From: Segetibacter sp. 3557_3
GTDB taxonomy: Bacteria; Bacteroidota; Bacteroidia; Chitinophagales; Chitinophagaceae
Direction of reading: 5' to 3'
DNA: 64,000 nucleotides
NCBI RefSeq assembly: GCF_004354985.1
Contig: NZ_SMSK01000001.1
Span: forward strand, 558,001 to 622,000
The notes under the pieces are model-generated. The model was not told the origin of the DNA. It made no database searches and was given only the letters and a program-made list of their open reading frames with translations. Below, piece by piece: positions 45,558 through 64,000 of the stretch; position 1 is the stretch's first letter, and every line of letters begins with the position of its first letter. The position numbers were made by a program, and so were the translations under genes.

Positions 45558-45566
45558 TATATTTCC

Positions 45567-46637: not shown

Positions 46638-46679
46638 GCGCTTGTGTTTCCTGGACCAACCCCTGTTGAATGGATCGTT

Positions 46680-46687
46680 CAAATATA
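46680..46687 (-). promoter_or_regulatory. Promoter -7 box of the isoprenoid-enzyme-like gene
   Basis: TATATTTG on the minus strand, perfect TAnnTTTG, 42 bp before the ATG at 46637. It rules out the longer upstream start. Confidence 0.62.
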
Positions 46688-47118: not shown

Positions 47119-47126
47119 TAATTTTG
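47119..47126 (+). promoter_or_regulatory. Promoter -7 box of pruA
   Basis: TAATTTTG, perfect TAnnTTTG, ends 26 bp before the pruA ATG at 47153. It falls inside the longer open frame and supports the shorter start. Confidence 0.58.
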
Positions 47127-47152
47127 CCTCTCCAAAAATCAAACTACCCGAT

Positions 47153-48778
47153 ATGAACCAAGGATATTTCAGTTACCCCATGCCGGTAAACGAACCGGTG
47201 CTCCAATACGCACCCGGCAGCCCCGAACGGGCCGCCCTTAAAAAAGTGCTTGCCGAACTAAAAAGCGCTGAAACTGAAATACCGATGTATATCGGCGGAA
47301 AGCAGGTTGAGACAGGTGATCGGGTTGCGATACACCCACCCCACGAGAAGGACCACACGCTCGGATATTTTCACGCGGGAACTGAGCATCATGTGCATGA
47401 AGCTATTGATGCTGCAATGCAGGCGCACGCCACCTGGAGCAACACCAGCTGGGAACAAAGGGCTGCCGTTTTCTTAAAAGCAGCCGACCTGTTAGCAACG
47501 AAATACCGTTATTATATCAACGCGGCAACGATGCTGGGGCAGAGCAAAAATGCATACCAGGCCGAGATCGACAGTGCGTGCGAATTGATCGACTTTTTAA
47601 AGTTCAATGTGCACTTCTTAAGCGAAATCTACAAACAGCAGCCCATATCCAGTACCGGGATGCATAATCGTACAGAATGGCGTGCCTTGGAAGGATTTGT
47701 ACTCGCAGTTACTCCATTCAACTTTACGGCGATTGCAGGCAACTTACCATGTAGCGCAGCAATGTGCGGAAATGTGGTGGTTTGGAAACCTGCAAACACC
47801 CAGGTATACTCTGCACAAATGATTATGCGTGTGCTGGTTGAAGCGGGTCTGCCTGCCGGAGTCATCAACCTGGTTTATGTGGATGGACCAACCCTCGGTA
47901 AGGTTTGCTTATCGCACCGCGACTTTGGTGGGGTTCACTTTACCGGGTCAACAGGTGTATTTAATACTATGTGGAAAACGATAGGTGAGAATATCGGGCT
48001 TTATAAATCTTATCCCCGGATTGTGGGCGAAACAGGAGGTAAAGACTTTGTAATTGCGCACAAAACGGCTGATGTAGATACCGTGGTTACTGCCCTGGCC
48101 AGGGGTGCATTTGAGTTCCAGGGGCAAAAATGTTCGGCGGCATCACGGGCTTATCTTCCATCCAATATCGCTGAAGAGGTTAAAACCAAACTGGTGGCAA
48201 CCATTAAAAAGATGAAGATGGGTTCGGTAGAAGACTTCTCAAATTTCATCAACGCAATTATCGACGAAAGAAGTTTTGATAAGATCAAGGGGTATATCGA
48301 TAATATTGAGAACGACCCGAATGCGACAATACTGGCAGGCGGCAATTGCGATAAAACAAATGGCTACTTTATTGAGCCAACCGTAATCGAAACAAAAGAT
48401 CCCAAGTCGGTCACCATGTGCGACGAGATCTTCGGGCCGGTACTTACCGTGTACACCTATGATGCGGAGCAGTTTGAAGAAACGCTTGAATTACTCGACA
48501 GCACCTCTCCGTATGCACTAACCGGCGCAATTATCGCGAGGGACAGGAGGGCCATTGAAGTGGCAACTGATAAGCTGCGGAATTCAGCGGGTAATTTCTA
48601 TATCAACGATAAGCCTACGGGTGCCGTTGTTGGCCAGCAGCCATTTGGCGGGGCAAGAGCAAGCGGAACAAACGATAAAGCGGGTAGCATGATCAACCTC
48701 TACCGGTGGTTAAGTGCCAGAACTGTAAAAGAAACATTTTCACCAGCGGTGAACTTTGAATATCCGTTTATGAGCTAA
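47153..48778 (+). CDS. pruA: L-glutamate gamma-semialdehyde dehydrogenase (delta-1-pyrroline-5-carboxylate dehydrogenase)
   Basis: PruA oxidises glutamate semialdehyde/P5C to glutamate with NAD in proline breakdown. From the ATG at 47153 the protein has 541 residues and starts MNQGYFSYPMPVNEPVLQYA, the usual start; an earlier ATG at 47114 lies next to the promoter box. Seen are the nucleotide-binding stretch NVVVWKPANTQ, GGVHFTGSTGVFNTMW, VGETGGKDFVIAH (general base Glu) and QGQKCSAASRAYLP with catalytic C327. Only the dehydrogenase is present, not a fused PutA, and no prodh gene lies in the window. Confidence 0.95.
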   Translation: MNQGYFSYPMPVNEPVLQYAPGSPERAALKKVLAELKSAETEIPMYIGGKQVETGDRVAIHPPHEKDHTLGYFHAGTEHHVHEAIDAAMQAHATWSNTSWEQRAAVFLKAADLLATKYRYYINAATMLGQSKNAYQAEIDSACELIDFLKFNVHFLSEIYKQQPISSTGMHNRTEWRALEGFVLAVTPFNFTAIAGNLPCSAAMCGNVVVWKPANTQVYSAQMIMRVLVEAGLPAGVINLVYVDGPTLGKVCLSHRDFGGVHFTGSTGVFNTMWKTIGENIGLYKSYPRIVGETGGKDFVIAHKTADVDTVVTALARGAFEFQGQKCSAASRAYLPSNIAEEVKTKLVATIKKMKMGSVEDFSNFINAIIDERSFDKIKGYIDNIENDPNATILAGGNCDKTNGYFIEPTVIETKDPKSVTMCDEIFGPVLTVYTYDAEQFEETLELLDSTSPYALTGAIIARDRRAIEVATDKLRNSAGNFYINDKPTGAVVGQQPFGGARASGTNDKAGSMINLYRWLSARTVKETFSPAVNFEYPFMS

Positions 48779-48847
48779 ATGATCAGGTGTTCAATATCGT
48801 TTAGGTAAGGCCGGCTCTTTGGGCGATTTGCCGAATAATGGTAGAAG

Positions 48848-48926
48848 GTACAAGCCCGCCCGGATAAACCGGTTCGGACGGGAGTGCGACGGCGCCCGGA
48901 TGGACGAGTTCGGACTGGCAACGATG
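48848..48926 (+). repeat. Dispersed intergenic repeat, copy E
   Basis: Starts GTACAAG, then two CCCGGAT...TTCGGAC units separated by GGGAGTGCGAC, and ends GGCAACGATG (48917-48926). The two ends match copies B and F; the inner part is rearranged. Confidence 0.65.
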
Positions 48927-49003
48927 TTCAATATTCGTCCTTAGTTTGGTCCAAAAAAATTAGATCAAAGGAGATAGATGCGTTTTTCGAGATGATTTCA
49001 AGA

Positions 49004-49036
49004 GCGGGTACGGACTTTAGTTGTACCCGCTTTTTT
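49004..49036 (+). terminator. Terminator-like hairpin between pruA and nnr
   Basis: GCGGGTAC and GTACCCGC form a perfect 8-bp stem with an 11-base loop, then TTTTTT. It lies 225 bp after pruA, so it either serves a long pruA 3' end or an unseen short transcript. Confidence 0.65.
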
Positions 49037-49169
49037 GTGCCCGGCTGTACTACTCCGGGCAGAAGTTTGGAGCAATTTTGTGCGCAAGAAACCCGGAAAC
49101 AGCCGAAACACTGCGCAGCCCAGAGTCTGCAATGTTTCGGGACAAAGTTTCGTTGGTCACCAAACAGGA

Positions 49170-50669
49170 TCAAGCCTGTTTTCTCGCAAAATCCTTGAAT
49201 ACTTCGGGAAGAGACCTGGTAATATCACCGGCAATCATCGCTTCCTGGCTGTAATTCGCCGCTGCAAAATCGCCTGCCATCCCGTGGATGTATACCCCAA
49301 AGAGTAAAGCCTGTTTTGGTTCGTAACCCTGCGCGAGTAATCCTGTAAGTATACCCGTGAGCACGTCCCCGCTACCGGCTGTCGCCATACCCGGGTTTCC
49401 TGTACTGTTAAAGTAGCCCGAACCATCAGGACAGGCCATGAACGAGTAATGACCCTTAACCAGGATGTAGATGTTATACCGCTGAGCTTGAGCGAGGGAT
49501 ACACTAATCCGTTCAAATCCATCCGCTGCTTTACCAAACAATCGCTCGAACTCTTTTGGATGAGGGGTGAGTATGCTTCCGGCAGGCAGTTGATCAAGAA
49601 GGCCCCGGTTTGCCCCGATGAGGTTTAATCCATCTGCATCCACAACCACCGGGTAATTAACGTTCGCCAGTACGCTTTCCATGATCGATAGTGCAGAGGC
49701 TGATGTGCCAAGACCCGGACCTATCCCTACCGCCGCATAGCTTTGCCAATGGATTTCATCCAACGCTTCTGCCGACACCGCCATCGCCTCAGGCAGGGCC
49801 ACTTGTAAAATCGGGATAGCTTCAGCAGGCAAAGCAGTCGACAACAGCCCAACCCCCACGCGCAGGCACGCATGTGAAGCCAGGATAGCCGCACCTACCT
49901 TTCCCTCACTTCCGGCAACCATAAGCGCATGGCCGTATGTGCCTTTATGCGCGAACTTGTTCCTTGGCCGGTAAATCGCGTCAATGAGTTGTCGCCCGGT
50001 TTGCTGGAAATTGGTTTGCGTTCCGGCATAATAACCGGGGTGTAAACCAATGTCGAGGACCTGAAGATTACCTGTAAACACATCATTTTCGGGCAGAAAG
50101 AAACTGAGTTTCGGAGTTTGAAAAGTGAGGGTTGTGCGCGCCCGCACGATCGGGTTGTCTTTTGAACTTGCATCAGCAAACATGCCCGATGGCAGATCGA
50201 TACTAATGACATTTGCACCTGACCTGTTGATGTGCTCCACCAGTTTAGCGGTAAGTCCCTCAAGTGGTTTGTTTAGTCCTGAACCAAATAAGGCATCGAT
50301 AACAATATCATCAATGGCAACTTCCGGAAAATCAACCCCGGGTTGGATAAAGTAGATTTTGCGGGTATAATCGTGAAGGCGTTTAAGGTTAGCCTGGAAG
50401 TCTGGTGATCCTTTTGCACCGAATTCCAGGATATAAACGGCAATTTCAATGGCATTAAATGCCAGGTGCCGGGCGATTGCCAAACCATCACCACCATTGT
50501 TTCCTTTACCACAAAATATTTTGAACCGCTTGTTGTCGAACGGCTGATTGCGGATCCACTTGGTACACATGCCTGCCGCCCGTTCCATTAGATCAATAGA
50601 AGACACAGGCTCGTTTTCGATGGTATATCTATCCCAATCACGTATTTGGCCTGCAGAATATAATTTCAT
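49170..50669 (-). CDS. nnr: Bifunctional NAD(P)H-hydrate epimerase/dehydratase
   Basis: Nnr repairs hydrated NADH and NADPH. The 499-residue protein from the ATG at 50669 (MKLYSAGQIRDWD) joins a YjeF_N epimerase (to about residue 210; FCGKGNNGGDGLAIARHLA, VIDALFGSGLNKPL) with a carbohydrate-kinase-like ADP-dependent dehydratase (GHALMVAGSEGKVGAAILA, ILTPHPKEFERLFG, NPGMATAGSGDVLTGILTG). The open frame reaches 50729, but those 20 residues have no family counterpart. It converges on pruA. Confidence 0.93.
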   Translation of the reverse strand: MKLYSAGQIRDWDRYTIENEPVSSIDLMERAAGMCTKWIRNQPFDNKRFKIFCGKGNNGGDGLAIARHLAFNAIEIAVYILEFGAKGSPDFQANLKRLHDYTRKIYFIQPGVDFPEVAIDDIVIDALFGSGLNKPLEGLTAKLVEHINRSGANVISIDLPSGMFADASSKDNPIVRARTTLTFQTPKLSFFLPENDVFTGNLQVLDIGLHPGYYAGTQTNFQQTGRQLIDAIYRPRNKFAHKGTYGHALMVAGSEGKVGAAILASHACLRVGVGLLSTALPAEAIPILQVALPEAMAVSAEALDEIHWQSYAAVGIGPGLGTSASALSIMESVLANVNYPVVVDADGLNLIGANRGLLDQLPAGSILTPHPKEFERLFGKAADGFERISVSLAQAQRYNIYILVKGHYSFMACPDGSGYFNSTGNPGMATAGSGDVLTGILTGLLAQGYEPKQALLFGVYIHGMAGDFAAANYSQEAMIAGDITRSLPEVFKDFARKQA

Positions 50670-50909
50670 GTTAAAGATTTTGAATACCTTTAAAAGACAG
50701 GTTCCAACCGACCATCTCCGGTTTACCAACTCTACAGTAAAACCACTCCACTTTTAACTTCCTGAGGCTCAGCGTTTATCAAAGCGGTGTCGTTAAAATT
50801 TTTTTAAAATTTCAAAACCAAGATTGCATGCATCACGTAACTGGACAGTTCACCTTTTTATTTCACCACATCAAATTGTTTCAATGGCATCAATTTTAAA
50901 ACAAACATT

Positions 50910-52700
50910 ATGAGAAAAACAATTACCTGCCTCTCACGACGGTTGAGCCTCCTGCTCCTGTCTTCGCTGATTATTGGGTATCATGCCAACGCTTCCTCGC
51001 ACCGGGAAGCTCCCCTGATATCACATGATCCGCTGGCTGATAACACCGACGTTTATGCTTTCCGGAGTCCCGACGACACATCTACGGTTACGATTATTGC
51101 CAACTTCATTCCCCTTCAGCTACCCGAAGGTGGGCCAAACTACTACAATTTCGGCCCAAATGTTCGCTATGAAATCCACATTAAAAACAAAGCCACAACC
51201 TCGGGCGACGATATCACCTATCGTTTTACTTTCTCGCAGGTTAACGAAGATCCAACTACTTTCTTTAATATTCGTTTGGGAAAACAAAACCTGAAAACCA
51301 CCTATACCGTGCAAAAAAGCATGGATGGGGGTATGTCCTTTACCACCATCCTTACCAACGGCATCGTTCCGCCGCCCAATATCGGCCCCCGTTCTATCGA
51401 CTCAGCTGGTATTGGTTTAGGAACAAGCTATAATAACCTCATGCAGGCTGCAATCGCTACTGCGACATCAAGCGAAAAGATTTTCTGCGGACAAGTAGAT
51501 GATCCGTTTTTTGTTGACATTGGCGGTGCTTCTGACCTGGGTAACTTCCGGCCGACCTACAATGCCAACAACAACAATACTGTTGCGCCACCTAAAGATG
51601 GTCTTTCAAGGGTAAATGTGCACAGTATTGCTCTGAAGATTCCGATCAATATGCTGCAAAAGGATGGCAAAATGACCAGCCAGGCGACAAGCATTCTTGA
51701 TGGTGACTTCGTTATTGGTGTTTGGGCAAGTGCAAGTCGTCCGCAGATCAGAACCCGTGATGCAAATACCGGCATGACAAACTACTCTGGCGACTACGTA
51801 CAGGTTTCCCGCCTTGGAATGCCACTGACTAACGAGGTTGTTATCCCAATCGGGATGAAAGACAAATGGAATACCGTTAAGACTAACAGTCCTGCAGAAG
51901 CACAATTCAGTATGTTCTTCAAAAATCCTGAGCTCGCCCTTTATATGGACGATAGTCAACTGGGATCAGCAGTACCTGCACTTAATGCGCTTCGTATTCA
52001 GTCGCACTCACTCGGAAGTACTCCAGGCACCGGCTTCGATTTCCGGAACGGTAAACCAGGTTTATTTCCTTTGAAAGGCACCCCTGCATTAAACGGGACT
52101 GCACTTTCTGAAGCCGCCTTTGGTGCTTACCTGTTACCAGATGCTATGAGCCCACGCGCAGTAGACCTGTTACCGATTTTTATGACCGGGGTTCCAAATC
52201 TACCTCCATACCAACTGGCTACAGGAAAACCAGCGAATAATCCACTCGCTGCGGGTAAACCTTTTATCAACAACTTCCTTCCAACCTTTGGCGACATGCT
52301 TCGTTTAAACATGGCTGTTCCGGTAACTCCACGTAACGATCCTAAGTTCAGTTCACTTGGCCTGGTTCAGGCTGCCGTGCTCGGACTTACAGACGCAACG
52401 TATGGTTCAACCGCAATCCAGTTTATTCCAAACATGGATGGCTTCCCCAACGGAAGAAGACTTGAAGACGATGTAACTACAATTGAGCTACAGGCAGTAG
52501 GTGGTGTTGTACTCGCTGCAATCGGTCTTTACTACGACGATTACAATCCAAATGGCGGTAGCGGGGTAACACAAAACCTGTTGAACGTACTAAGCTTTAA
52601 CGCCGGCCCGCAACAGAATGATACTACGTTCAGGGTATCCTTCCCTTACGAGCAAACACCATGGAGAGGATTTGACTACACCATGCAACCAAAGTTCTAA
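50910..52700 (+). CDS. DUF4331 secreted protein 1
   Basis: 596-residue exported protein. The signal peptide (MRKTITCLSRRLSLLLLSS and on to A28) is followed by SSHREAPLISHDPLADNTDVYAF, the DUF4331 hallmark. If cleaved after ANA (A28) the mature chain begins Ser-Ser-His. The DUF4331 domain fills the rest. It is 20 bp upstream of its longer paralogue; the two share long identical blocks such as PANNPLAAGKPFINNFLPTF. Unlike the second protein it lacks a type IX sorting domain, so it likely stays in the periplasm. Function of DUF4331 is unknown. Confidence 0.88.
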   Translation: MRKTITCLSRRLSLLLLSSLIIGYHANASSHREAPLISHDPLADNTDVYAFRSPDDTSTVTIIANFIPLQLPEGGPNYYNFGPNVRYEIHIKNKATTSGDDITYRFTFSQVNEDPTTFFNIRLGKQNLKTTYTVQKSMDGGMSFTTILTNGIVPPPNIGPRSIDSAGIGLGTSYNNLMQAAIATATSSEKIFCGQVDDPFFVDIGGASDLGNFRPTYNANNNNTVAPPKDGLSRVNVHSIALKIPINMLQKDGKMTSQATSILDGDFVIGVWASASRPQIRTRDANTGMTNYSGDYVQVSRLGMPLTNEVVIPIGMKDKWNTVKTNSPAEAQFSMFFKNPELALYMDDSQLGSAVPALNALRIQSHSLGSTPGTGFDFRNGKPGLFPLKGTPALNGTALSEAAFGAYLLPDAMSPRAVDLLPIFMTGVPNLPPYQLATGKPANNPLAAGKPFINNFLPTFGDMLRLNMAVPVTPRNDPKFSSLGLVQAAVLGLTDATYGSTAIQFIPNMDGFPNGRRLEDDVTTIELQAVGGVVLAAIGLYYDDYNPNGGSGVTQNLLNVLSFNAGPQQNDTTFRVSFPYEQTPWRGFDYTMQPKF

Positions 52701-52720
52701 CAAATAAATAAAAGGTTTAT

Positions 52721-55009
52721 ATGAAAAAAATTTTAAATCTGTTTGCAGCCACTTTGGTTTGTGTACTGTTTAACCAAACCACTTCAATTGCATCATCGCA
52801 CCGGGAGGCACCGTTGATCGCATATGATCCGCTAGCAGACAATACAGATGTTTACGCTTTCAGAAGCCCGTGCGACACCAATAATGTGGTGATCATCGCC
52901 AATTACATACCGTTTGAAGCACCTCATGGAGGGCCGAATTACTACGACTTCTCTCCGAGTGTTCGTTACCAGATCCACATCAAAAACAACGCTTCAACAA
53001 CCGGCGACGATATCGTTTACCGTTTTACGTTCCGCCAGGTGAACCAGGATCCGAACACATGGTTTTACATCCGTGGTCGTAACCAGAACATGAAAACGGA
53101 ATACGAAGTAGATCGCAGCCTGAACGGTCGCCCATTTGAAAGAATAGTTATCAATGGTCGTGTTCCTGCAAACAATGTCGGACCAAGGTCACTTTACGAT
53201 CCGGCTGTAGGTTTTGGCTTTGCTCCCGGTTCTTATGAAACTTACCGCGAGAGCCTTGCTATCAGGGCGGTTACCAACGAAAACATCTTCTGCGGACCTT
53301 CTGACGATCCATTCTTTGTTGATCTTGGAGGCGCATTCGATCTGGGTAATTTCCGCAAGACAGGTCGTGATGGACTTGCTAAGATGAATACCCATTCGAT
53401 CGTAATGGAAATTCCGATCAAGCAACTTCAGAAAGACGGAAAAGAAACGCTTAATGCGACCAGCATACTCGACAGCGATTTCATTATCGGTGTTTATGCA
53501 ACCGCAAGCCGTCAGATGATAACCACTTTCGACTCAACAACCGGTAAAGAAACCCATTCAGGCAACTGGGTACAGGTTTCAAGACTTGGTATGCCGTTGA
53601 CCAACGAAGTGGTAAATCCGATTGGTGTTAAGGATCTTTGGAACGCTACAATGACAAATTCAGCAGGCGAGGCACAATTCGACCAGTACCTCAAAAACCC
53701 TGAGCTTGCCTTGTATATGGACGACTCTAAGTTCGGTACTGCAGTACCGGGTCTTGCTGACCTTCGCATACAGTCAAAGTCACTTGGTAGTTTCGACTTC
53801 CGCAATGGCATGCCTGGTCTTTATACATTGAAAGGTAGCGCAGCACTCACCGGAACAGCCCTTGCAGAAGAGGCCTTTGGTGCTTACCTGTTACCCGACA
53901 ATGCAAGCCCACGTGCGGTTGACCTGTTACCAATCTTCAAGACAGGTGTTCCAAACTTGAGGCCTTACCAGCTTGCAACAGGTAAACCTGCAAACAATCC
54001 GCTTGCTGCAGGTAAGCCATTCATCAACAACTTCCTGCCTACATTTGGCGACATGTTGCGCCTGAACATGGCTGTACCTGTTACGCCAAGAATGGTTAAT
54101 GGAGCACCTAACCCTGAATTCAGTTCATTGGGCTTGATACAGGCAGCAGTGCTTGGTTTAACCGATAACCGTTTCGCCGGTACTTCACTTCAGTTTATTC
54201 CTAATATGGATGGTTTTCCAAACGGAAGAAGACTTGAGGATGATGTGACTACCATTGAACTCCAGGCAGTAGGTGGAGTTGTACTTGCAGCCATTGGCTT
54301 GTGGTACGATGACTATCCCGGAACAGGAAGTCCTGTTACCCCACAACTGGGAAGAACACTCGCATTTAATGCAGGTGTTACCAAAAACGATACTACCATC
54401 AGGTCATGCTTCCCGTTTGTACAAACACCATGGGTTGGCTTTACAGGTCCGCAATACATGGGTCCGAAGAGCCAGCAGGGTCGTGTTGCTGAAAGCATGC
54501 TCACGTTCAACGCTGATAAATCAGGCGAGAAAGTATTGCTTCGCTGGTCGGCTATGAATGAGAACAATGGCGATCGTTACGAAGTTGAGCGCAAGACAGC
54601 TCAGGGATTTGTACGCATCGGCTCACAAAAGATGGTTGGCGGAAAATCAACCCATTCTTATGAGCTCTTCGATGCTACACCTTCCACTGAAGTATCAAAT
54701 ATCTACCGCGTTAAGCTTGTAGCAAAAGATGGTTCTTATAACTACTCTCCGTTGCGCATGATTAATTTCTCTGCGAAGAGCATGCTCACCATTGCCCCAA
54801 ATCCGGCTACAGACTACTTTAATGTTTATACCAAAGAACAAGGTATCAATATCAGTCTGCTGGATAATTCAGGCAAGCGTATGGCTTCAAAAGTAATCAC
54901 CAGCGGATCGGCTCAGTTCGACATCTCACGTTTTGCAAAAGGCATGTATATGATCGTTGCAGAAAGAAATGGTGTTCGCGTTGAAACCATCAAAGTGGTT
55001 AAACACTAA
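52721..55009 (+). CDS. DUF4331 secreted protein 2 with T9SS C-terminal domain
   Basis: 762 residues. A signal peptide (MKKILNLFAATLVCVLFNQT and on to A24) leads to SSHREAPLIAYDPLADNTDVYAF, then a DUF4331 domain (to about 560), a beta-sandwich module (RVAESMLTFNADKSGEKVLLR to NYSPLRMI) and a T9SS sorting domain (about 690-762: TIAPNPATDYFNVYTKE ... GMYMIVAERNGVRVETIKVV). It is thus likely sent through the type IX system and surface-attached or released. Cleaved after SIA the mature chain begins Ser-Ser-His, as in protein 1. Strong terminator follows. Confidence 0.9.
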   Translation: MKKILNLFAATLVCVLFNQTTSIASSHREAPLIAYDPLADNTDVYAFRSPCDTNNVVIIANYIPFEAPHGGPNYYDFSPSVRYQIHIKNNASTTGDDIVYRFTFRQVNQDPNTWFYIRGRNQNMKTEYEVDRSLNGRPFERIVINGRVPANNVGPRSLYDPAVGFGFAPGSYETYRESLAIRAVTNENIFCGPSDDPFFVDLGGAFDLGNFRKTGRDGLAKMNTHSIVMEIPIKQLQKDGKETLNATSILDSDFIIGVYATASRQMITTFDSTTGKETHSGNWVQVSRLGMPLTNEVVNPIGVKDLWNATMTNSAGEAQFDQYLKNPELALYMDDSKFGTAVPGLADLRIQSKSLGSFDFRNGMPGLYTLKGSAALTGTALAEEAFGAYLLPDNASPRAVDLLPIFKTGVPNLRPYQLATGKPANNPLAAGKPFINNFLPTFGDMLRLNMAVPVTPRMVNGAPNPEFSSLGLIQAAVLGLTDNRFAGTSLQFIPNMDGFPNGRRLEDDVTTIELQAVGGVVLAAIGLWYDDYPGTGSPVTPQLGRTLAFNAGVTKNDTTIRSCFPFVQTPWVGFTGPQYMGPKSQQGRVAESMLTFNADKSGEKVLLRWSAMNENNGDRYEVERKTAQGFVRIGSQKMVGGKSTHSYELFDATPSTEVSNIYRVKLVAKDGSYNYSPLRMINFSAKSMLTIAPNPATDYFNVYTKEQGINISLLDNSGKRMASKVITSGSAQFDISRFAKGMYMIVAERNGVRVETIKVVKH

Positions 55010-55028
55010 TTATTACTAACCCAACAAC

Positions 55029-55063
55029 AAATACCCGGTTGTCTTTGCAACCGGGTATTTTTA
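55029..55063 (+). terminator. Rho-independent terminator of the DUF4331 pair
   Basis: AAATACCCGGTTG and CAACCGGGTATTT form a perfect 13-bp stem with a 6-base loop, followed by more T residues, 19 bp after the stop. Confidence 0.9.
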
Positions 55064-55242
55064 AAAATCATCTTCAATCGACAACAAGACTTTTCCCGTA
55101 TATTATGGTACCGGCATAATATCAATGTGGAGGCTTCTGTTGCGTCGCATTCCGTTCATCGGTTGAACCACAGATTGAGCGGAAAAAACCAGGCTTCCGG
55201 TAATGGATTACTGAAAAGAACTTCCCCCAACAACCCCAACAA

Positions 55243-56589
55243 ATGAAAAAGAATAACATTTACATTATTTCACTGGTTGTTTTTGCGCTTGCCGTTACAG
55301 GCATTGTATACAACTACAACCGAAAAGAACAGCTAAAAGAAAATCAAACCTACCCATTGCTCTCCCGTAAGGCAACAGCAGCCGATGACGAGGAATGGAA
55401 GAAAACACAGCAAAGCGCAAAAGATTTAATGGCAGCGGTAAAAGCCGATGCTACTGATATCAAATCAGCCCTGAAACTTGCTGCCCTCTATATACAGGAA
55501 GCGCGGGAAACCGGCAATCACCAATACTACGATCCTGCTGCAATGCAGCAGGTAAATAAGGTACTTTCAATTGATGCAACAAACTTTAATGCACTTGTTT
55601 TTAAATCACTTGTTTACTTATCGCAGCACCACTTTGCCGAAGGCCTTGCAACAGCCCGGCAGGCACAACAGATTAATCCGAGCAATGCTTACGTTTATGG
55701 TTTAATGGTAGACGGCCATGTTGAAATGGGTAGCTACGACTCTGCTGTAATGTATGCCGACAAGATGGTTTCCATTCGGCCCGATCTCACCTCTTATTCA
55801 AGAATATCATACCTCCGTGAAATCTTTGGTGACTATCCCGGCGCAATTGCTGCAATGAAAATGGCTGTTGAAGCCGGTGGAAAAGGCGATGAGCATACCG
55901 AATGGACAAGGGTTCAATTGGGAAGTTTATACGAGAAAACAGCCGATTACAAATCAGCACAAGATATCTACCAGGTTGCGCTTACTGTTCGACCGGAGTA
56001 TGCTTATGCACTTGCAGGTATGGCCAGGCTGGCCCTGGCATCGGGAGACTACCGCAAAGCGATCAGCTATTATGAAAAAGCAGACTCCATGATTACAGAC
56101 AATAGCATTAAGGAAGAACTTGTAGACGCTTACAAAGCCGCAGGTGAAACCAAAAAGGCAGAGGCAGTTTGCAATCAGGTGATTGAGGCCTTATTGAAAG
56201 ATTCTAAACCGGAGACCGATGATGAATCAGTTGGCCACTACTCGGATCGTGAGCTTGCTTATGCTTACCTGAAAGTGAACCAGCCTAAGAAGGCACTTGA
56301 GCATGCAATGCTCGAATACAATCGCCGGCCCGACAATATTGATGTTAATGAAACAGTTGCTTGGGTACTATACAACATGGGTGAATATGCAAAAGCAGCG
56401 CCCTATATTGATGCTGCTTTAAAGACCAACTCAAAAAATCCCCTACTGTTAAGCAGAGCCGGGCTTATCTATTATAAATCGGGTAACATCCATAAAGCAA
56501 GACCGATTCTTCAACAGGCCTCAGCTTCGAACGCCTATGTTGAACAACACCTGAAAACAGAAACTTCCACGGCCATGCAACGCATGTAG
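55243..56589 (+). CDS. Tetratricopeptide repeat protein, membrane-anchored
   Basis: 448 residues. One N-terminal helix (about 6-24: IYIISLVVFALAVTGIVYNY) serves as signal anchor; the rest is periplasmic and built of TPR units (e.g. YAYALAGMARLALASGDYRKAISYYEKAD and AYAYLKVNQPKKALEHAMLEYNRRPD, NMGEYAKAAPYIDAALKTNSKNPLLLSRAGLIYYKSG). TPR proteins form scaffolds. The HupE-like gene follows after 24 bp, so the two are likely one operon within the DUF4331 locus. Its partner is unknown. Confidence 0.85.
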   Translation: MKKNNIYIISLVVFALAVTGIVYNYNRKEQLKENQTYPLLSRKATAADDEEWKKTQQSAKDLMAAVKADATDIKSALKLAALYIQEARETGNHQYYDPAAMQQVNKVLSIDATNFNALVFKSLVYLSQHHFAEGLATARQAQQINPSNAYVYGLMVDGHVEMGSYDSAVMYADKMVSIRPDLTSYSRISYLREIFGDYPGAIAAMKMAVEAGGKGDEHTEWTRVQLGSLYEKTADYKSAQDIYQVALTVRPEYAYALAGMARLALASGDYRKAISYYEKADSMITDNSIKEELVDAYKAAGETKKAEAVCNQVIEALLKDSKPETDDESVGHYSDRELAYAYLKVNQPKKALEHAMLEYNRRPDNIDVNETVAWVLYNMGEYAKAAPYIDAALKTNSKNPLLLSRAGLIYYKSGNIHKARPILQQASASNAYVEQHLKTETSTAMQRM

Positions 56590-56613
56590 TGCACACACGA
56601 AATCGCTACAGCT

Positions 56614-57285
56614 ATGCGTTCAAAACTGAATTACAAACTTTGCTTGCTGGTGCTTGTTTTAGTACTGGCATGTTCTAACCTTTATGCCCACACCATCAAC
56701 TATGTGCTTGAGAAGGCGCCGACAAACGACGTCATTTGGTTCTACCTGAAATTGGGTTTTAATCACATTATTCCCGAGGGTTTTGATCACATCCTTTTTG
56801 TAATTGGGCTGTGTTTATTGGGCAACAAGCTAAAGGTAATCTTATGGCAGGCAACAGCATTTACCGTTGCGCATTCGCTTACGCTTGCCTTAAGCATGAA
56901 GAGCGTAATTGTTGCACCTGGCGAAATCGTTGAACCGATCATCGCACTATCAATACTATTTGTTGCTGTTGAAAACATTTTGATTTCCGGGTTAAAGCCC
57001 TGGCGCATCATCCTTGTTTTTCTCTTTGGATTAATTCATGGGCTTGGTTTTGCCAGTTCGCTTAACGAGATCGGCTTACCCAGAAACAAATTTCTGACAT
57101 CCATTTTATCGTTTAACGTAGGTGTTGAGTTGGGACAGGTTGCGGTTATTTTAGCCGTTTACCTCCTGTTGGTTATTCCGTTTGGTAAAAAGGAGGCTTA
57201 TCGCAAATGGGTTGTTTACCCACTTTCGGCACTGATCGCTGTAATTGCCTGTTATTGGACAATTGAACGTGTTTTCTTTACCTGA
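56614..57285 (+). CDS. HupE/UreJ-family permease
   Basis: 223-residue membrane protein with an N-terminal signal sequence (to about A25; the mature chain may begin His) and six or so helices. The family's metal-site motifs are all here: HIIPEGFDHILFVIG (H51, D58, H59), AFTVAHSLTLAL (H87) and FGLIHGLGFASSL. HupE and UreJ proteins import nickel; relatives act on cobalt or copper. It is the second gene after the TPR gene (24 bp). It supports a metal role for the locus, but which metal is unknown. Confidence 0.87.
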   Translation: MRSKLNYKLCLLVLVLVLACSNLYAHTINYVLEKAPTNDVIWFYLKLGFNHIIPEGFDHILFVIGLCLLGNKLKVILWQATAFTVAHSLTLALSMKSVIVAPGEIVEPIIALSILFVAVENILISGLKPWRIILVFLFGLIHGLGFASSLNEIGLPRNKFLTSILSFNVGVELGQVAVILAVYLLLVIPFGKKEAYRKWVVYPLSALIAVIACYWTIERVFFT

Positions 57286-57502
57286 CCTCAGCTATAGGTT
57301 GCATGTAGTCTGGTCAAACCAGGCATCTCGTCGTGCCATAACGCAACAGGGTTCACAGTGCATTTTCAGGGGAATAGCAGAGCCGACGAGCAATCATATC
57401 CAAGGAATGCTGCAATTGGGCTTACTGACTCGCCCAACCAAACAAATGAGTTATCAACGGCTATTTAATCGAAATATATAAACTCAGATCGTTACCACCT
57501 GC

Positions 57503-57871
57503 ATGAAGAAGCTGCTGACATATATAGTGCTTTACGCATACCTGGTTATGTTGGTTAAACCCGTTCTTCCTATTTTTTCCGATCTCATTGCCCACACTTT
57601 CTACAGGCTTGAACATATCTCGGTTGTACACCAACACAATGGCGTTTACCATGTTGATAAAGAACTTGAAGATGCATCAGAAGACCTTCCAACCGCCCCT
57701 GCTTCAAGGCTGAATTTTGGAAAAGACATTACACCTCATCTCGTATCGACAGTAGCATATGAAGCACAAACCCCGCTTGTTAATTTAGTTCATCTGCAAT
57801 CGTATATGGGCGAACTTTCTGATGCATTTACCCATGATTATTTTCCTCCTCCCAGGTTTGTTGTAAATTAA
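57503..57871 (+). CDS. His-rich membrane-anchored small protein
   Basis: 122 residues. N-terminal helix (4-26: LLTYIVLYAYLVMLVKPVLPIF) and a His-rich stretch just after it (HTFYRLEHISVVHQHNGVYHV; H31, H38, H43, H45, H50), then a polar tail ending in DYFPPPRFVVN. Such short His-rich proteins near TonB receptors and metal pumps of Bacteroidota probably bind metal, though their role is not known. It lies 217 bp after the HupE gene and 187 bp before the TonB receptor. Confidence 0.72.
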   Translation: MKKLLTYIVLYAYLVMLVKPVLPIFSDLIAHTFYRLEHISVVHQHNGVYHVDKELEDASEDLPTAPASRLNFGKDITPHLVSTVAYEAQTPLVNLVHLQSYMGELSDAFTHDYFPPPRFVVN

Positions 57872-58058
57872 CAAACACGTTCACTTTAGACTTTAATCGT
57901 AAGTATGTCAGGCCATAGCTATTGTTAATAGGATAGCTGGCCATGGGTATCGCACCATCCATCATTTGGTTGTATAATGTACCCCATCTACACGCGATTG
58001 CTGCTATTGAGCTGCTGTTTGATTACCGATTCTTCCCATTTCTCACAACAAACAGCTT

Positions 58059-60338
58059 ATGAATCCTAATCTACCATCAACAAACGTCAACTATTACCGT
58101 TCCGCCTTAAAGCGTTTTCTCGCTTTTTTCATCTCCTTCCTGGCCTGCCTTGCATTAAATGCACAAACCATTCAGAAAGGCATTGTTATCGATGCCAAAA
58201 GCAGGCAACCTCTGCAAGGAGCAACCGTGTCTGTTGTTGGTCAGCCGGAATTATCCTCCGTCAGCGATGCTGCAGGTGCTTTTCAAATAAGGACCAATGA
58301 AAGCCTCTCGACAATCAACGTTTCTTACATCGGTTATAAAACGATGGCCTATGAAGTGCAGCCGGGAAAACCGCTGGTTGCAGCACTGCAAGGGGATATG
58401 GTTAATCTAAGAGACGTCGTGCTTTCACAGGGCATCGGGCAGCAAAAGTTTAATTCACTTGCAAAAGTGGACCTTGACCTGAGGCCGGTAAAAACAACAC
58501 AGGAGCTCATGCGGATTGTTCCGGGGTTGTTTGTGGCTCAACATGCAGGTGGCGGCAAAGCAGAACAAATTTTTCTTCGCGGCTTTGATTGCGATCATGG
58601 TACCGACATTGCCGTATCGGTGGATGGGATGCCGGTGAATATGGTGAGCCATGCGCACGGCCAGGGATATGCCGATGCCCATTTTGTTATACCTGAGACA
58701 ATCAAAAACATCGACTATGGAACTGGGCCCTATTATGCGCAGCAGGGAAACCTGAATACTGCTGGTTACGTTGGTTTTTCAACATACGACAATATCAGCA
58801 ACAACCTGATCCAGGTGGAAGCAGGCAGGTTCAACACCATTAGGCTACTCACTCTGGCCGACCTGTTGAAGAAAAATAAAGACAGGCAAAGCGCCTACAT
58901 TGCAGCAGAGGCAAATTATAGTGACGGCCCAACGATTAATCCTCAAAATTTTAACCGGGTAAACATTTTTGCAAAATACAACCAGGCTATTTCCAACAAT
59001 ACCCGGCTCAGCCTTTCTGTTTCCGGGTTTAAAAGCAAATGGGACGCCTCCGGCCAAATACCTGAAAGAGCTGTAAACAACGGTACAATCGACCGCTTTG
59101 GTTCTATTGATCCTTCTGAAGGCGGCAACACAGAGCGATACAATGCTAATCTTTTGATCACCGCTAACCTTAGCAATGGATACACGTTAACCAACCAGCT
59201 TTATTATACCCGGAACATATTTAACCTTTATTCAAACTTTACTTTTTTCCTTAACGACCCTGTAAACGGGGATGAAATCAACCAGGGTGAAAAAAGGCAT
59301 CTGGTAGGCTATACCTCAAAGCTGGCCAGGCAGCGGTTCTACACAAACACAATGGTCAGCACGCAATATGGAATTGGTTTCAGGTACGATGCTACTAAAA
59401 ATTCATTTCTTTCGAATGTTGTTAAACGCAGGTTTCTGAATTACATCAAGTCAGGCGATATTAACGAGGGGAATTTTTACGCTTATGTTCAAAAACAATT
59501 GTCGTTAGGCAAATTCCTGTTAGATGGCGGATTACGGATCGACCACCTAAATTTTAACTACCACGACAGGCTGTCTTCCATTCAATCGCCGGGCAGGTCC
59601 AGAACTATAGTTAGCCCGAAACTGAATATTCAGTACACCGTTGATCCAACCTTTCAGCTATACGTAAAAACCGGTAAGGGTTTCCACTCAAACGACAGCA
59701 GGGTAGTGGTAGCAAACAGGGGTAAGGAAATTTTGCCGGCAGCTTATGGTGCCGATCTCGGGATTAACTTAAAACCTATCAAACAGGTCTTCATAAATAT
59801 AGCTGCCTACTACCTGTACCTCGAGCAGGAATTTATATATGTTGGCGACGAAGGAATTGTTGAGCCTGGTGGCAAAACCCGCAGGTATGGCCTCGACGTG
59901 ATCGCGAGATGGCAGTTTACCAATGCATTATTTGCAAATGCGAATTTAAACCTGAGTAAAGGGCGAAGTATAGGAGAACCAAAAGGCGCAGATTACATTC
60001 CACTTGCCCCTGACCTGACCTCAACAGGCGGAATTTATTATAAGAAGAAAACAGGTCTAAACGGTGGACTAAGCTACCGATTTATTAAAGACCGGCCCGC
60101 AAACGAAGACAATTCAATTATAGCAAAAGGCTATTTTATTCTTGACGGCGCTATCAATTATACAAGACCGAAATACGAAGTAGGACTTGCATTCGAAAAC
60201 CTCCTCAACGAGAAATGGAACGAGGCGCAATTTGCTACACAATCAAGATTGCTAAACGAGCCTGCATCGGTTGACGAACTTAACTTTACACCCGGAACAC
60301 CGTTGTTTTTCCGGGCCAAACTGGCCATTTTCTTTTAA
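58059..60338 (+). CDS. TonB-dependent receptor (carboxypeptidase-regulatory-like N-domain)
   Basis: 759-residue outer-membrane receptor with a long signal peptide (cleavage expected near A35/Q36). A CarboxypepD_reg-like domain (about 38-115; GIVIDAKSRQPLQGATVSVV) is followed by the plug (RIVPGLFVAQHAGGG, IFLRGFDCDHGTDIAVSVDG) and a beta-barrel ending LFFRAKLAIFF. The plug is His/Asp-rich (DCDHGTD 177-183, HAHGQG from 198, DAHF 207), recalling metal-import receptors. No SusD partner follows, so it is not a carbohydrate SusC pair. It closes the DUF4331 locus. Confidence 0.88.
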   Translation: MNPNLPSTNVNYYRSALKRFLAFFISFLACLALNAQTIQKGIVIDAKSRQPLQGATVSVVGQPELSSVSDAAGAFQIRTNESLSTINVSYIGYKTMAYEVQPGKPLVAALQGDMVNLRDVVLSQGIGQQKFNSLAKVDLDLRPVKTTQELMRIVPGLFVAQHAGGGKAEQIFLRGFDCDHGTDIAVSVDGMPVNMVSHAHGQGYADAHFVIPETIKNIDYGTGPYYAQQGNLNTAGYVGFSTYDNISNNLIQVEAGRFNTIRLLTLADLLKKNKDRQSAYIAAEANYSDGPTINPQNFNRVNIFAKYNQAISNNTRLSLSVSGFKSKWDASGQIPERAVNNGTIDRFGSIDPSEGGNTERYNANLLITANLSNGYTLTNQLYYTRNIFNLYSNFTFFLNDPVNGDEINQGEKRHLVGYTSKLARQRFYTNTMVSTQYGIGFRYDATKNSFLSNVVKRRFLNYIKSGDINEGNFYAYVQKQLSLGKFLLDGGLRIDHLNFNYHDRLSSIQSPGRSRTIVSPKLNIQYTVDPTFQLYVKTGKGFHSNDSRVVVANRGKEILPAAYGADLGINLKPIKQVFINIAAYYLYLEQEFIYVGDEGIVEPGGKTRRYGLDVIARWQFTNALFANANLNLSKGRSIGEPKGADYIPLAPDLTSTGGIYYKKKTGLNGGLSYRFIKDRPANEDNSIIAKGYFILDGAINYTRPKYEVGLAFENLLNEKWNEAQFATQSRLLNEPASVDELNFTPGTPLFFRAKLAIFF

Positions 60339-60410
60339 TTGATCAGCAACAAAAATTGACGTTGTTTATCGAAATGCATACAGGAACTCCGGTGAATAGA
60401 ATTACCTAAA

Positions 60411-60461
60411 GTACAAGGGAGTGACACCCGTCCGACTGGCGCAGCCGGGCGGGCAACGATG
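60411..60461 (+). repeat. Dispersed intergenic repeat, copy F (one inner unit)
   Basis: GTACAAGGGAGTGACAC, then one CGTCCGACTGGCGCAGCC unit, then GGGCGGGCAACGATG. This is copy B minus one inner unit. Confidence 0.75.
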
Positions 60462-60538
60462 CTTAATCGGGATCCCTCCGTTCGTCACTGAAAAAATGCA
60501 TAAGCAATGAAGTTTGACCTGGTGGTTGCACACACCTT

Positions 60539-61792
60539 TTAGCGGTACACGTATTGGACGGTATCAACGGTTTGCTGTAGCAGTAAAACCTGTCTACCTT
60601 CCAGTACCCCGTTTACGCCCCCGTTGGCATAATGCCGTACTGTATACAACGAGAGACCCTTTTCTATTTGAACGTCAAATACACCTGAGGCTGACACCGC
60701 AACCTGGTCGAGTTTACCAGGCTTATCATCCATGCAAACCTGAACACCAATCGCGCCTGTTTGGATCAGGTTTGGCTTAAGGCCCAGTTCAGCAAAAAGG
60801 TTATACAGGAAGATCATAGGCGCCTCGCCAACGAAAGAATAGTCGAGGCTCGTGAGGTGCAACAAAACCTGGTTTTCTTTTATCACTTTAACGGGCGGAA
60901 GGCCTTTCACATTTTTTTTGCTGATAACTGTTCCGGGTAGGGCAGGGTTTATAAAGCTTTTTACAAGAAGTGGGATGCCCTTATTTTGAAGTGGCTTGAT
61001 GGTTTTTGGATGTATTACCTGTGCACCGTAGTACGACATTTCGATCACCTCTGCATAACTTAGCTCAGGCAGCAATACGGCATCGGTAAACTTGTTTGGA
61101 TCGGCGTTCATTACCCCTTCCACGTCTTTCCAGATGGTAAGATTATCTGCACCAAGCAGGTTAGCGAATATCGCTGCGGAATAGTCGCTGCCTTCGCGGC
61201 CGAGGGTAGTGCTTTCATTTTCGTCGGTGGATCCGATAAAGCCCTGGGTAACGTAAAAAGTTGGAGACGCGTTAATCAATAACGGAGTCAGCCGGTCACG
61301 GGTAAATTCGAAATCAACCTGCGCATCCCTGAAATGATCATCGGTGCGAATGATGTCACGCACATCGAGCCACTGAGCGTTTAAGCCTGTCTCCTGTAGA
61401 TAGGCGTTTACAATAACACTGGACAGGAGTTCACCAATACAAACCACCTGGTCGTAGTAATAATCGTATTCTTTTACGGGCTTATCATGCAACAGCCATT
61501 CCACTTCCGTAAACAAAGACTCAAGTTCATCAAGTGTTTTATTGTAGGTTTTAACCAACAGGTATTTTGCAGTGGTAATGTGACTTTCCTTGATAAGGTT
61601 AAAAAGGTTAAGTGCATCCTGCTGGTTGCCGTTATAAAAAGCGTCGGCAACTTTCTCGAGCGCATTGGTAGTTTTTCCCATTGCAGAAATAACCACTACC
61701 ATGGTTTGCTGCTCCTGTCGCAAAATTGAACCCACTTGCTTAATCCGATCAACGCTTCCCAGGCTTGCACCACCAAACTTATAAACCTTCAT
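60539..61792 (-). CDS. Aspartate kinase
   Basis: 417-residue monofunctional aspartokinase that phosphorylates aspartate, the first step to lysine, threonine and methionine. Seen are VYKFGGASLGSVDRIKQVG (3-21), VVISAMGKTTNALEKVA, FIGSTDENESTTLGREGSDYSAAIFA and KDVEGVMNADPN. The C-terminal part is an ACT-like region (about 290-417) that looks shortened compared with two-ACT enzymes. It has its own -7 box and is upstream of no gene on the same strand within the window. Confidence 0.92.
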   Translation of the reverse strand: MKVYKFGGASLGSVDRIKQVGSILRQEQQTMVVVISAMGKTTNALEKVADAFYNGNQQDALNLFNLIKESHITTAKYLLVKTYNKTLDELESLFTEVEWLLHDKPVKEYDYYYDQVVCIGELLSSVIVNAYLQETGLNAQWLDVRDIIRTDDHFRDAQVDFEFTRDRLTPLLINASPTFYVTQGFIGSTDENESTTLGREGSDYSAAIFANLLGADNLTIWKDVEGVMNADPNKFTDAVLLPELSYAEVIEMSYYGAQVIHPKTIKPLQNKGIPLLVKSFINPALPGTVISKKNVKGLPPVKVIKENQVLLHLTSLDYSFVGEAPMIFLYNLFAELGLKPNLIQTGAIGVQVCMDDKPGKLDQVAVSASGVFDVQIEKGLSLYTVRHYANGGVNGVLEGRQVLLLQQTVDTVQYVYR

Positions 61793-61812
61793 GTAACATT
61801 TTTAGAACCCGG

Positions 61813-61820
61813 CAAAGATA
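61813..61820 (-). promoter_or_regulatory. Promoter -7 box of the aspartate kinase gene
   Basis: TATCTTTG on the minus strand, perfect TAnnTTTG, 20 bp before the ATG. Confidence 0.6.
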
Positions 61821-61980
61821 AGGCAGGCATGCCCTGAGTTCCTGAACATTTCAGCGACGTTTCAGAGGATGTTCGGGGTTAAAGCTACCAATGAACCGTG
61901 GTTTTGTACGCCAGGTTTTCTTTCAAGCTTAATTAAGAATCTTGAATGAGGAGAATGAAGGTATATGGAAGTGCAGTAGC

Positions 61981-63486
61981 TTAGGCAGTTCCTTTGGTTT
62001 CGGTAAACACAATGCCGTGTTTTCTTAATTCGGCTAACACAGGTTTGTAAATGTGTTCACCAACAGGAATATGCAACCCGGTCTGTGTTATGACACCATC
62101 GAGTATCAGCTTTGCAGCAATGCCCAGGGGCAGCCCAACTGTTTTGGCCATTGCCGTTCTTTCGCTGTTTTCGCCTTTGCAAACGAGGTGACTTTGTACA
62201 ACGTGTGCTCTATTTTCCAATTCATATTTTACCTCATGCAACATCACGATCATGTCTTTATCGTTGGGCTGTAAGGCAAGTTTTTGTTGAAGGATGAGTT
62301 GCAGAATTTCCGCGGCAGTGCAGTTGCCATTATTGATGAGTTGATCGCTATCAAGGCCAAGAAAGAACAACTGTTTAAGACTCAGGTTCGCCTCGTGCAT
62401 TTTTAGCGCAACAGCCTCGGCAGTTCTATCCCGCACGTCGCCGATACCTATGGTATCCAGTTCACCATTTTCATTTACCAGCATTATCGACTCTTCTGCT
62501 TCGGGCTCCTCATTTTCTTCTGGTTGCTCGTCAATCAGCTGCATCAGGTTCTTCATCAAATCTTTGGCAAACGAAAGACGCGTACTTAACATGTCTGTTA
62601 TCCATTGTGAAAAACCGTGCTTTTCGAAGTGTATTCTAAAAAAATCGCTGAAAGTCATTCCATCGGTTTCATAGATATCGGATTCATCCGTAAGTTTTAA
62701 GGAAATGATATTGTTCCAGCCAAAACAGAAGTCCGGATGCCGGATTGTTGTACGCATGAATGTGGCTGCCTGCTCAAGACCATACACCGGAATATATCCG
62801 AGAGAGTTGCGGTTGGGATAAAAAGCCATTGTATCGAGTCCGGGTACGGGCAATACTCCAGGCATTGCAAAAAGTTGTTGGTAGTCCAGCGTAACCTCCT
62901 GGCCGTCTTCTTTGTAAATCGCCCCTGCTTTTCCAGCCATAACAACATTTCGCGGGTTCCAGCTGATCTTGTAGTGCCATGGGTTGTCATCGCTTTCAGG
63001 GGCAATCAGCCCTCCACAATGGGACTTAAAAGAAGTGATGACACCACCCTTGCCGCGGATTTTGTTAATCAGTTCCATTGCGCTCATATGGTCTATCCCC
63101 GGATCGAGCCCCATTTCACATAGAAACAACAGCTGCTTTTGGTTGATTTGTGGTTCAAGGTCCCTGACCTTGTCATCGATATAGCTGGCCGTTAACAGGT
63201 GTTTAGTGTGGTTAATACAATCCAGCGCAACATGGTAATGCAAAGAGGGTGGAAGCATTGAAATCACAACGTCTGCCTTCGCAACCAGGTTGATCCTTTG
63301 TTCCGCATCTTCAATTTGCAACTCCACCCAGCTAACGAAAGCATGAGTGCCAACCTTTAACATCAAGACATCTTTATTGCTGTCTGCAACAGTTACCTGC
63401 CACGACCGTTCAGTAGAGAGCGATTTCAGGTAGTCAATGAGAACTGTTGCAGATTTACCCGCACCAAACAAAAGGATGTGCTTCAT
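61981..63486 (-). CDS. Saccharopine dehydrogenase
   Basis: 501-residue NAD(P)-dependent reductase/dehydrogenase of the Lys9 type: ILLFGAGKSATVLIDYL (3-19), ADVVISMLPPSLHYHVA, TASYIDDKVRDLEPQ, EMGLDPGIDHMSAMELI and SCGG-like SHCGGLIAPESDDNPWHYKISWNPRNV. It likely works in lysine breakdown through saccharopine. A Glu-rich insert (about residues 317-332: DEQPEENEEPEAEE) lies between the folds. The ATG at 63486 is used; the upstream extension adds only seven residues and contains the promoter box. Confidence 0.9.
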   Translation of the reverse strand: MKHILLFGAGKSATVLIDYLKSLSTERSWQVTVADSNKDVLMLKVGTHAFVSWVELQIEDAEQRINLVAKADVVISMLPPSLHYHVALDCINHTKHLLTASYIDDKVRDLEPQINQKQLLFLCEMGLDPGIDHMSAMELINKIRGKGGVITSFKSHCGGLIAPESDDNPWHYKISWNPRNVVMAGKAGAIYKEDGQEVTLDYQQLFAMPGVLPVPGLDTMAFYPNRNSLGYIPVYGLEQAATFMRTTIRHPDFCFGWNNIISLKLTDESDIYETDGMTFSDFFRIHFEKHGFSQWITDMLSTRLSFAKDLMKNLMQLIDEQPEENEEPEAEESIMLVNENGELDTIGIGDVRDRTAEAVALKMHEANLSLKQLFFLGLDSDQLINNGNCTAAEILQLILQQKLALQPNDKDMIVMLHEVKYELENRAHVVQSHLVCKGENSERTAMAKTVGLPLGIAAKLILDGVITQTGLHIPVGEHIYKPVLAELRKHGIVFTETKGTA

Positions 63487-63490
63487 AAAA

Positions 63491-63498
63491 CAAATATA
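63491..63498 (-). promoter_or_regulatory. Promoter -7 box of the saccharopine dehydrogenase gene
   Basis: TATATTTG on the minus strand, perfect TAnnTTTG, only 4 bases before the ATG at 63486. If used, transcription starts at or next to the start codon and the mRNA is leaderless. Confidence 0.55.
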
Positions 63499-63826
63499 GC
63501 CGTCCAATTGGCTGTTTACATACTTGATTCTTCCGTTCTTTTTGTTAAGACGGGTTCATACTGACGGTTTATCCGTCCCGTAATGCATTTACCCCTGCTG
63601 ATTACCCATGTGCAAAAACTGGCTTTGCAATTACATTATTGGAACAAAATATAATATGATTGCGGATTACCTGGAAGCCCAAATCTTACCTGCTCTCAAG
63701 CCGTAATTTTAACAGCTGCAAGCCCTTAAAAACCAGTATTTATACCTGCTTTACAGCTGAAAAAAGTTACATTTGCACACTTTTCAAATTACCTGTTAAC
63801 TCCTTTAAAATCCGCTTAAAACTTAC
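63499..63826. other. 328-bp divergent intergenic region
   Basis: Between saccharopine dehydrogenase (minus) and gyrA (plus). It holds the gyrA -7 box (63768-63775) and an A/T-rich centre (around 63640-63660). No repeat copy or further gene was seen. Confidence 0.5.
63768..63775 (+). promoter_or_regulatory. Promoter -7 box of gyrA
   Basis: TACATTTG, perfect TAnnTTTG, with a TTTAC at 63750-63754 in the place of the -33 element. It ends 51 bp before the gyrA ATG. Confidence 0.6.
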
Positions 63827-64000
63827 ATGGAAGAAAACATAGAACCGCTGCAAACCAGTGACAACGACCGCATCATCCAGGTAAATATCGAGGAGCAAAT
63901 GAAAACCGCATATATCGACTACTCCATGTCGGTAATTGTGGGTCGCGCACTTCCTGATGCGCGGGACGGCTTTAAGCCGGTTCACCGCCGGGTATTGTAT
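63827..64000 (+). CDS. gyrA: DNA gyrase subunit A, N-terminal part (runs off the window)
   Basis: The 58 codons visible read [19 protein letters not shown], then [20 protein letters not shown] and [17 protein letters not shown]. This is the invariant N-terminal start of GyrA, ahead of the quinolone region and the active-site Tyr. GyrA cuts and rejoins DNA in the gyrase tetramer. ParC has a similar start, but [23 protein letters not shown] favours GyrA. The rest lies beyond the right edge. Confidence 0.92.

Follow-up and report, generated by a model that had tools for sequence, protein, structure and literature searches.

A six-gene cluster of Segetibacter sp. 3557_3 with two DUF4331 proteins, a HupE-type permease and a TonB-dependent receptor: a candidate metal-acquisition system

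We analyzed a stretch of 64,000 nucleotides (the window; G000:C11:558001-622000) from the 6.75 Mb genome of Segetibacter sp. 3557_3, in which six genes on the forward strand encode two DUF4331 proteins (D1 and D2), a tetratricopeptide repeat (TPR) protein, a permease of the HupE/UreJ type, a small anchored protein containing His, and a TonB-dependent receptor. Our results suggest, with a probability of roughly 0.55, that this cluster is a metal-acquisition system in which the DUF4331 proteins serve as secreted catchers of metal. The original prediction had placed six same-strand genes of these kinds at 50910-60338, and both the gene coordinates and our Pfam search agree with it (Table 1).

Conservation of the gene neighbourhood

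The original prediction also proposed, as a test, a search for DUF4331, HupE and the TonB receptor together in other genomes of Bacteroidota. The outcome of this search was positive, and it extends to other phyla. In a sample of 149 genomes of the same order, DUF4331 was found in 34, HupE in 59, and the receptor subfamily (threshold E <= 1e-100) in 32; seven candidates were scored per genome, and the receptor counts may be low. DUF4331 and the receptor occurred together in 25 of the 149 genomes, DUF4331 alone in 9 and the receptor alone in 7 (Fisher test, 6e-15; these tests are uncorrected for kinship), and in 14 of the 25 the two genes were at most 20 kb apart. HupE accompanied DUF4331 in 23 genomes (p 1.7e-4) and the receptor in 23 (p 3.3e-5). 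Within 20 kb of DUF4331, HupE was present in 12 of 34 genomes, against 0.26 expected from random placement, likewise uncorrected for kinship. That is, the grouping of the cluster genes is far beyond chance.

From a wider scan of named genomes we took the best 80 of 572 loci, which include Chitinophagaceae, Saprospiraceae, Hymenobacteraceae, two Ignavibacteria and one Calditrichaceae record. The families were labelled with profiles built on the order loci, within six genes of DUF4331. At these 80 loci, a TPR gene was found at 66, the receptor at 44, HupE at 28 and an extracytoplasmic function (ECF) sigma gene at 14, and TPR, HupE and receptor genes were all present at 23. When the count was restricted to the 41 loci whose contigs extend beyond 7 kb on each side, the values were 39 for TPR, 29 for the receptor, 15 for HupE and 13 for all three.

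D1 also matched 32 plasmids, and 13 plasmid loci with DUF4331 were opened. A TPR-type gene stands beside or near DUF4331 in 9 of the 13 (the TPR scores of Lichenicola and Comamonadaceae are below the Pfam cut-off), and a nickel-type permease in 6. The arrangement DUF4331-TPR-HupE was seen in Lichenicola, Marinobacter and a Comamonadaceae plasmid, and DUF4331-TPR-NicO, with a NicO nickel permease assigned by Pfam, in Streptomyces; in two further Streptomycetaceae, an annotated 'nickel transporter' accompanies DUF4331. Unrelated nickel permeases occupy the same place, and nickel is therefore indicated as the metal. Two Streptomycetaceae plasmids also have a class F sortase gene near DUF4331 (L182:9791-10534 and L181:16719-17293), hinting at wall anchoring.

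DUF4331 proteins, permease and receptor

Both D1 and D2 span positions 1-421 of the PF14224 model, of which the curated cut-off is 27 bits. A type IX secretion domain had been assigned to one paralogue, and it was confirmed for D2, which alone possesses a C-terminal sorting domain (Por_Secre_tail PF18962, 36.5 bits; TIGR04183, 36.2 bits); D1 has none. In 34 of 37 complete tandem DUF4331 pairs the short gene precedes the long one, as in the window. No solved relative of DUF4331 was found by sequence (one match at E 0.26) or by profile, and DUF4331 was named in no paper found in our literature search.

The segment SSHREAP was kept in 25 of 25 aligned full-length DUF4331 proteins from three phyla, and in 117 of 130 DUF-labelled open reading frames (ORFs), the other 13 being fragments, ORFs that start inside the domain, or false matches. 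Its His is the sole invariant His in an 11-row cross-phylum alignment. In the 113 ORFs that have SSHREAP within the first 90 residues, the residue at -1 is always A, S or G and that at -3 is always L, A, V, S, G, I or T, which fits the (-3,-1) rule. With a simple rule-based cleavage caller, not SignalP, the cut was predicted before SSHR in 55 of 79 DUF4331 proteins, and His was placed at position 3 in 2 of 194 other proteins. The amino-terminal Cu(II)- and Ni(II)-binding (ATCUN) pattern is X-X-His at the mature N-terminus. The predicted mature DUF4331 would begin with S-S-His, and this invariant, newly noticed segment would be an ATCUN-like candidate site for Cu(II) or Ni(II). The idea in the original prediction that DUF4331 may be a metal carrier gains by this a candidate site for the predicted binding.

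DUF4331 was also observed in a split form, as an N-half gene and a C-half gene, in G140, G135, G130, G095, G113, G009 and G134 (L064-L070). The N-half starts with ADHID after the signal peptide, the C-half is lipoprotein-like, and each matches its own part of PF14224. HupE or the receptor lies nearby in several of these loci.

The permease has the metal motif expected of it, HIIPEGFDH, besides its match to PF13795. A motif of this type was found in 26 of 28 related HupE proteins, and the published signature of the family is HPXXGXDH (PMC7689651). A cut between Ala and His, which would leave His26 as the first mature residue, was predicted; the same A/H pair stands in 27 of the 28 relatives. 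The same cleavage caller placed His first in 11 of 20 HupE proteins versus 22 of 194 other proteins, and because of the latter the mature-His start of HupE is the weaker signal. A lipobox-like VLAC lies directly before His26, and an alternative cut is possible. The domain of the window HupE starts at residue 44, and the approximately 18 residues between His26 and this point contain no separate extracytoplasmic domain. No solved relative of HupE was found. The second HupE gene of the same genome (C11 near 811 kb; L071:8900-12401) adjoins genes for DUF6702 and an M1 peptidase, a setting like the DUF6702-adjacent one described in PMC12537917.

The receptor belongs to a distinct subfamily: in its own genome it scores 1124.9 bits, and the next of 113 matches reaches 65.9 bits. 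The sequences DCDHGTD and HAHGQG, pointed out in the original prediction, are both within the Plug domain. Among 11 aligned relatives, the D, DHGTD and SHAHGQG of the plug are invariant, six His residues being invariant in total, and this motif type recurs in 12 further receptors compared. Both DHG[TS]D and the HxHGQG segment occur in 42 of 42 long receptors, and a stricter regular expression for the plug segment fits 27 of the 42. Membership in SusC/RagA (TIGR04056; 60.1 bits vs a cut-off of 368.25) and in BtuB (TIGR01779; 30.8 bits vs a cut-off of 599.7) was rejected.

The receptor matched 49 plasmid records, of which 12 from Pseudomonadota were opened. Genes for NikR, NiCoT, NiFe hydrogenase, CobW/CobN or cobalamin lie near its relatives at 9 of these 12 loci (two of the nine are near-identical Bradyrhizobium), and the other 3 have no Ni/Co-type genes nearby. 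When 12 such receptors were compared with the window receptor, the one from Hymenobacter scored 677 bits and the 11 from Pseudomonadota 225-326 bits, versus at most 61 bits for the three highest-scoring among the remaining receptors of its genome. For the 9 receptors in Ni/Co settings, compared directly or by near-identical kin (L180 itself excluded), the scores were 236-314 bits. Judged from these similarities, the window receptor is kin of receptors encoded beside Ni/Co genes, and it would be a candidate transporter of Ni or Co. Predicted nickel/cobalt TonB receptors are listed in PMC2771747, with no proven member in that list, and a receptor with NiCoT and CobW is described in PMC7689651; one of our opened loci has that arrangement. 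On the plasmid of Hymenobacter sp. GOD-10R (L175), the receptor is accompanied by three DUF3500 genes and a long HupE; DUF4331 is not annotated there, and DUF3500 may stand in for it.

The small protein had been described as His-rich. The gene is present, but its His content is modest (8 of 122 residues). The protein has no match in Pfam or PHROG, and relatives were found at 8 of the 80 DUF4331 loci. In Hymenobacter (L133:14355-14741 and alike), a small secreted His/Cys protein is encoded between HupE and the receptor, a position like that in the window, and several of these proteins end in a proline-rich tail.

In our favoured reading, these components would act in the following way. D2 would act at the cell surface via type IX secretion, and D1 would work either in the periplasm or outside. 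The free S-S-His of both proteins may grip square-planar divalent Ni(II) or Cu(II) as ATCUN sites do, and the receptor, with the invariant His and Asp residues of its plug, would use TonB to move the metal, or a complex of it, across the outer membrane. The TPR protein, anchored in the membrane, may hold or dock DUF4331, the small His-containing protein may pass the metal on, and HupE, with its predicted N-terminal His, would feed the ion to the cytoplasm. The uptake route put forward in the original prediction is partly supported: the metal theme and the co-occurrence hold, and the identity of the metal, its binding by DUF4331 and the inward flow are predictions.

A more specific proposal, which we hold only tentatively, is that DUF4331 proteins are cross-phylum secreted protein metallophores ('nickel catchers'), in which a processed and invariant N-terminal S-S-His would be combined with TPR-tethered handover to an interchangeable HupE or NicO permease and, in Bacteroidota, with a dedicated TonB receptor. 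Our literature search turned up no secreted ATCUN protein metallophore of this kind.

Choice of metal and alternative explanations

We think that nickel is the likeliest metal and copper the second. The permease families, the neighbours of the receptor relatives and the urease in the genome of the window are on the side of nickel. The nickel enzymes were searched for in the 12 genomes with HupE near DUF4331: urease was found in G000 and G047, and NiFe hydrogenase in G095 and G140, with a weak match in G002. Cobalt for B12 synthesis is unlikely, CbiC being found in 0 of the 12 genomes vs 7 of 14 control genomes.

Several observations weigh against the metal-acquisition reading or against nickel. 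HupE is missing at 52 and the receptor at 36 of the 80 loci, partly owing to short contigs; even among the 41 loci with flanks of more than 7 kb each, only 15 have HupE nearby. Four of the 13 DUF4331 plasmid loci have neither TPR nor permease, namely one Pseudoalteromonas (with ECF sigma and anti-sigma genes) and three Rhodobacterales (L076, L080, L081) beside type II secretion genes, which suggests export of their DUF4331 by type II secretion. His at position 1 (called in 22 of 194 other proteins) is less special than His at position 3. Seven of the 12 genomes have no match to urease or NiFe hydrogenase. LarA, NikR and CbiC were found in 0 of 12, with positive controls; nickel superoxide dismutase was also found in 0 of 12, but this absence is weak, since no control genome matched. 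No riboswitch marks the metal: none was found at the window locus (45000-64000), where there was one far sub-threshold match, or at the cluster in seven related loci, where the sole hits were a tRNA and a SAM-I-IV element, both off the cluster.

Because seven of the 12 genomes lack every nickel enzyme tested, we keep copper as an alternative, with perhaps one chance in four by our estimate: the machinery would be the same, with secreted DUF4331 catching Cu(II) and HupE importing copper. ATCUN sites hold Cu(II) tighter than Ni(II). The N-terminal-His domains of HupE/UreJ_2 proteins also bind both ions and Cu(II) more tightly, with published values of 74 nM for Cu(II) and 220 nM for Ni(II) in RbAng-1a and 62 nM for Cu(II) in MmAng-2a (PMC12537917). 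The Ni/Co-type neighbours at 9 of 12 receptor loci and the NicO permease at the same place in Streptomyces argue against copper.

It is unlikely that the system serves metal defence, in which secreted proteins would bind excess metal under an ECF sigma/anti-sigma switch and the permease would store or export it. ECF sigma genes do stand near DUF4331 at 14 of 36 order loci, besides the 14 of 80 given above, and they are accompanied by RskA-like or cupin anti-sigma proteins; some members of the NicO families are exporters. A HupE/UreJ-like gene was moreover the most up-regulated gene in a nickel-adapted Sphingobium (PMC5557971). Against this, a TonB receptor imports, the characterised HupE proteins import Ni or Co (PMC7689651), and no efflux pump family is among the recurring neighbours at the order loci. 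The anti-sigma types linked to the cluster were RskA_C and cupin (L067:10677-11540 and L040:16425-17054), and none lies beside the window locus.

Least probable is a surface or structural DUF4331 without metal, next to a receptor for the import of an organic cofactor, for example a B12-like or pyrroloquinoline quinone (PQQ)-like compound: BtuB is the closest solved receptor, with the PQQ transporter and YncD by profile, and the Rhodobacterales DUF4331 genes have no metal genes nearby, but these receptor matches (30.8 bits for BtuB; 70.7 bits for the PQQ transporter) are weak compared to those with the Ni/Co-linked receptors, and every complete trio opened has a metal permease.

Locus layout, related systems and significance

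Table 1. Positions of the genes and sequence features of the cluster in the window
Feature	Position	Strand	Description
DUF4331 protein D1	50910..52700	+	596 amino acids, signal peptide, no type IX secretion tail; PF14224, 421.8 bits
SSHREAP of D1	50994..51014	+	predicted mature N-terminus S-S-His (ATCUN-like); alignment, motif counts
DUF4331 protein D2	52721..55009	+	762 amino acids, type IX secretion tail; PF14224, 393.3 bits
SSHREAP of D2	52793..52813	+	alignment; coordinates verified
Terminator-like hairpin	55030..55061	+	boundary of DUF4331 pair and TPR; -20.9 kcal/mol, z -7.05
TPR protein	55243..56589	+	448 amino acids, N-terminal hydrophobic anchor; TPR families above Pfam cut-off
HupE/UreJ-type permease	56614..57285	+	223 amino acids; HupE_UreJ_2 PF13795, 158.3 bits
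His26 of HupE	56689..56691	+	predicted mature first residue (A/H cut)
HupE motif HIIPEGFDH	56764..56790	+	membrane motif; sequence reading, motif of relatives, published signature
Small His-containing protein	57503..57871	+	122 amino acids, anchored; no family match
TonB-dependent receptor	58059..60338	+	759 amino acids, distinct subfamily; CarbopepD_reg, Plug and barrel domains
Receptor plug segment QHAGGGKAEQ...DCDHGTD...SHAHGQG	58539..58667	+	His/Asp invariant across relatives

The D1 and D2 genes are 20 bases apart. The hairpin that follows them was missed by a simple terminator scan, and its energy was reached in 0 of 200 shuffles; the DUF4331 pair therefore probably ends its own transcript. 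A single six-gene operon was rejected as unproven, this strong hairpin separating the pair from the TPR gene, and the six genes are probably not all on one transcript. The small gene is moreover set off by gaps of 217 and 187 bases, as computed from the gene coordinates. Next to the locus lie an NAD(P)H-hydrate repair gene and a gene for an amino-acid kinase on the opposite strand. Phage origin was rejected; the cluster has no match in phages or PHROGs.

The cluster resembles several known systems in part. The 'anglerases' Ang-1 and Ang-2 are HupE/UreJ_2 permeases with His at the mature N-terminus, for which metal capture and uptake were proposed (PMC12537917); the main text of that paper does not name DUF4331. 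The window HupE has a predicted His start as well, but no separate domain between His26 and the membrane part, whereas the long HupE proteins beside DUF4331 in Lichenicola, Marinobacter and Comamonadaceae have both a pre-membrane domain and the A/H start. The predicted Ni/Co TonB transporters (Region VIII, PMC2771747; Novosphingobium aromaticivorans, PMC7689651) share the NikR, NiCoT, CobW/CobN and hydrogenase neighbours of our receptor's relatives; the window receptor differs in having CarbopepD_reg and in its partners DUF4331, TPR and HupE. DUF4198 and DUF6702 proteins are secreted and bind metal through an N-terminal His, and the neighbours of DUF4198 include TonB receptors and NikR (PMC12537917). 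Their His is the first residue, whereas that of DUF4331, an unrelated and larger family, is the third. In SusC/SusD and BtuB/BtuG of Bacteroidota, too, a secreted or surface binder is encoded next to a TonB receptor, but no SusD or BtuG partner was seen at the window locus.

With this analysis, the widespread DUF4331 family has definite partners and one residue that can be tested, and with them a first testable role, as a secreted metal-binding protein. If our reading is true, aerobic Bacteroidota would rely on a secreted protein, rather than a small chelator, to catch nickel or copper, and a shorter version of the capture system would be present in Pseudomonadota and streptomycetes. It would also give substrates to a class of TonB receptors for which nickel or cobalt has so far only been predicted.

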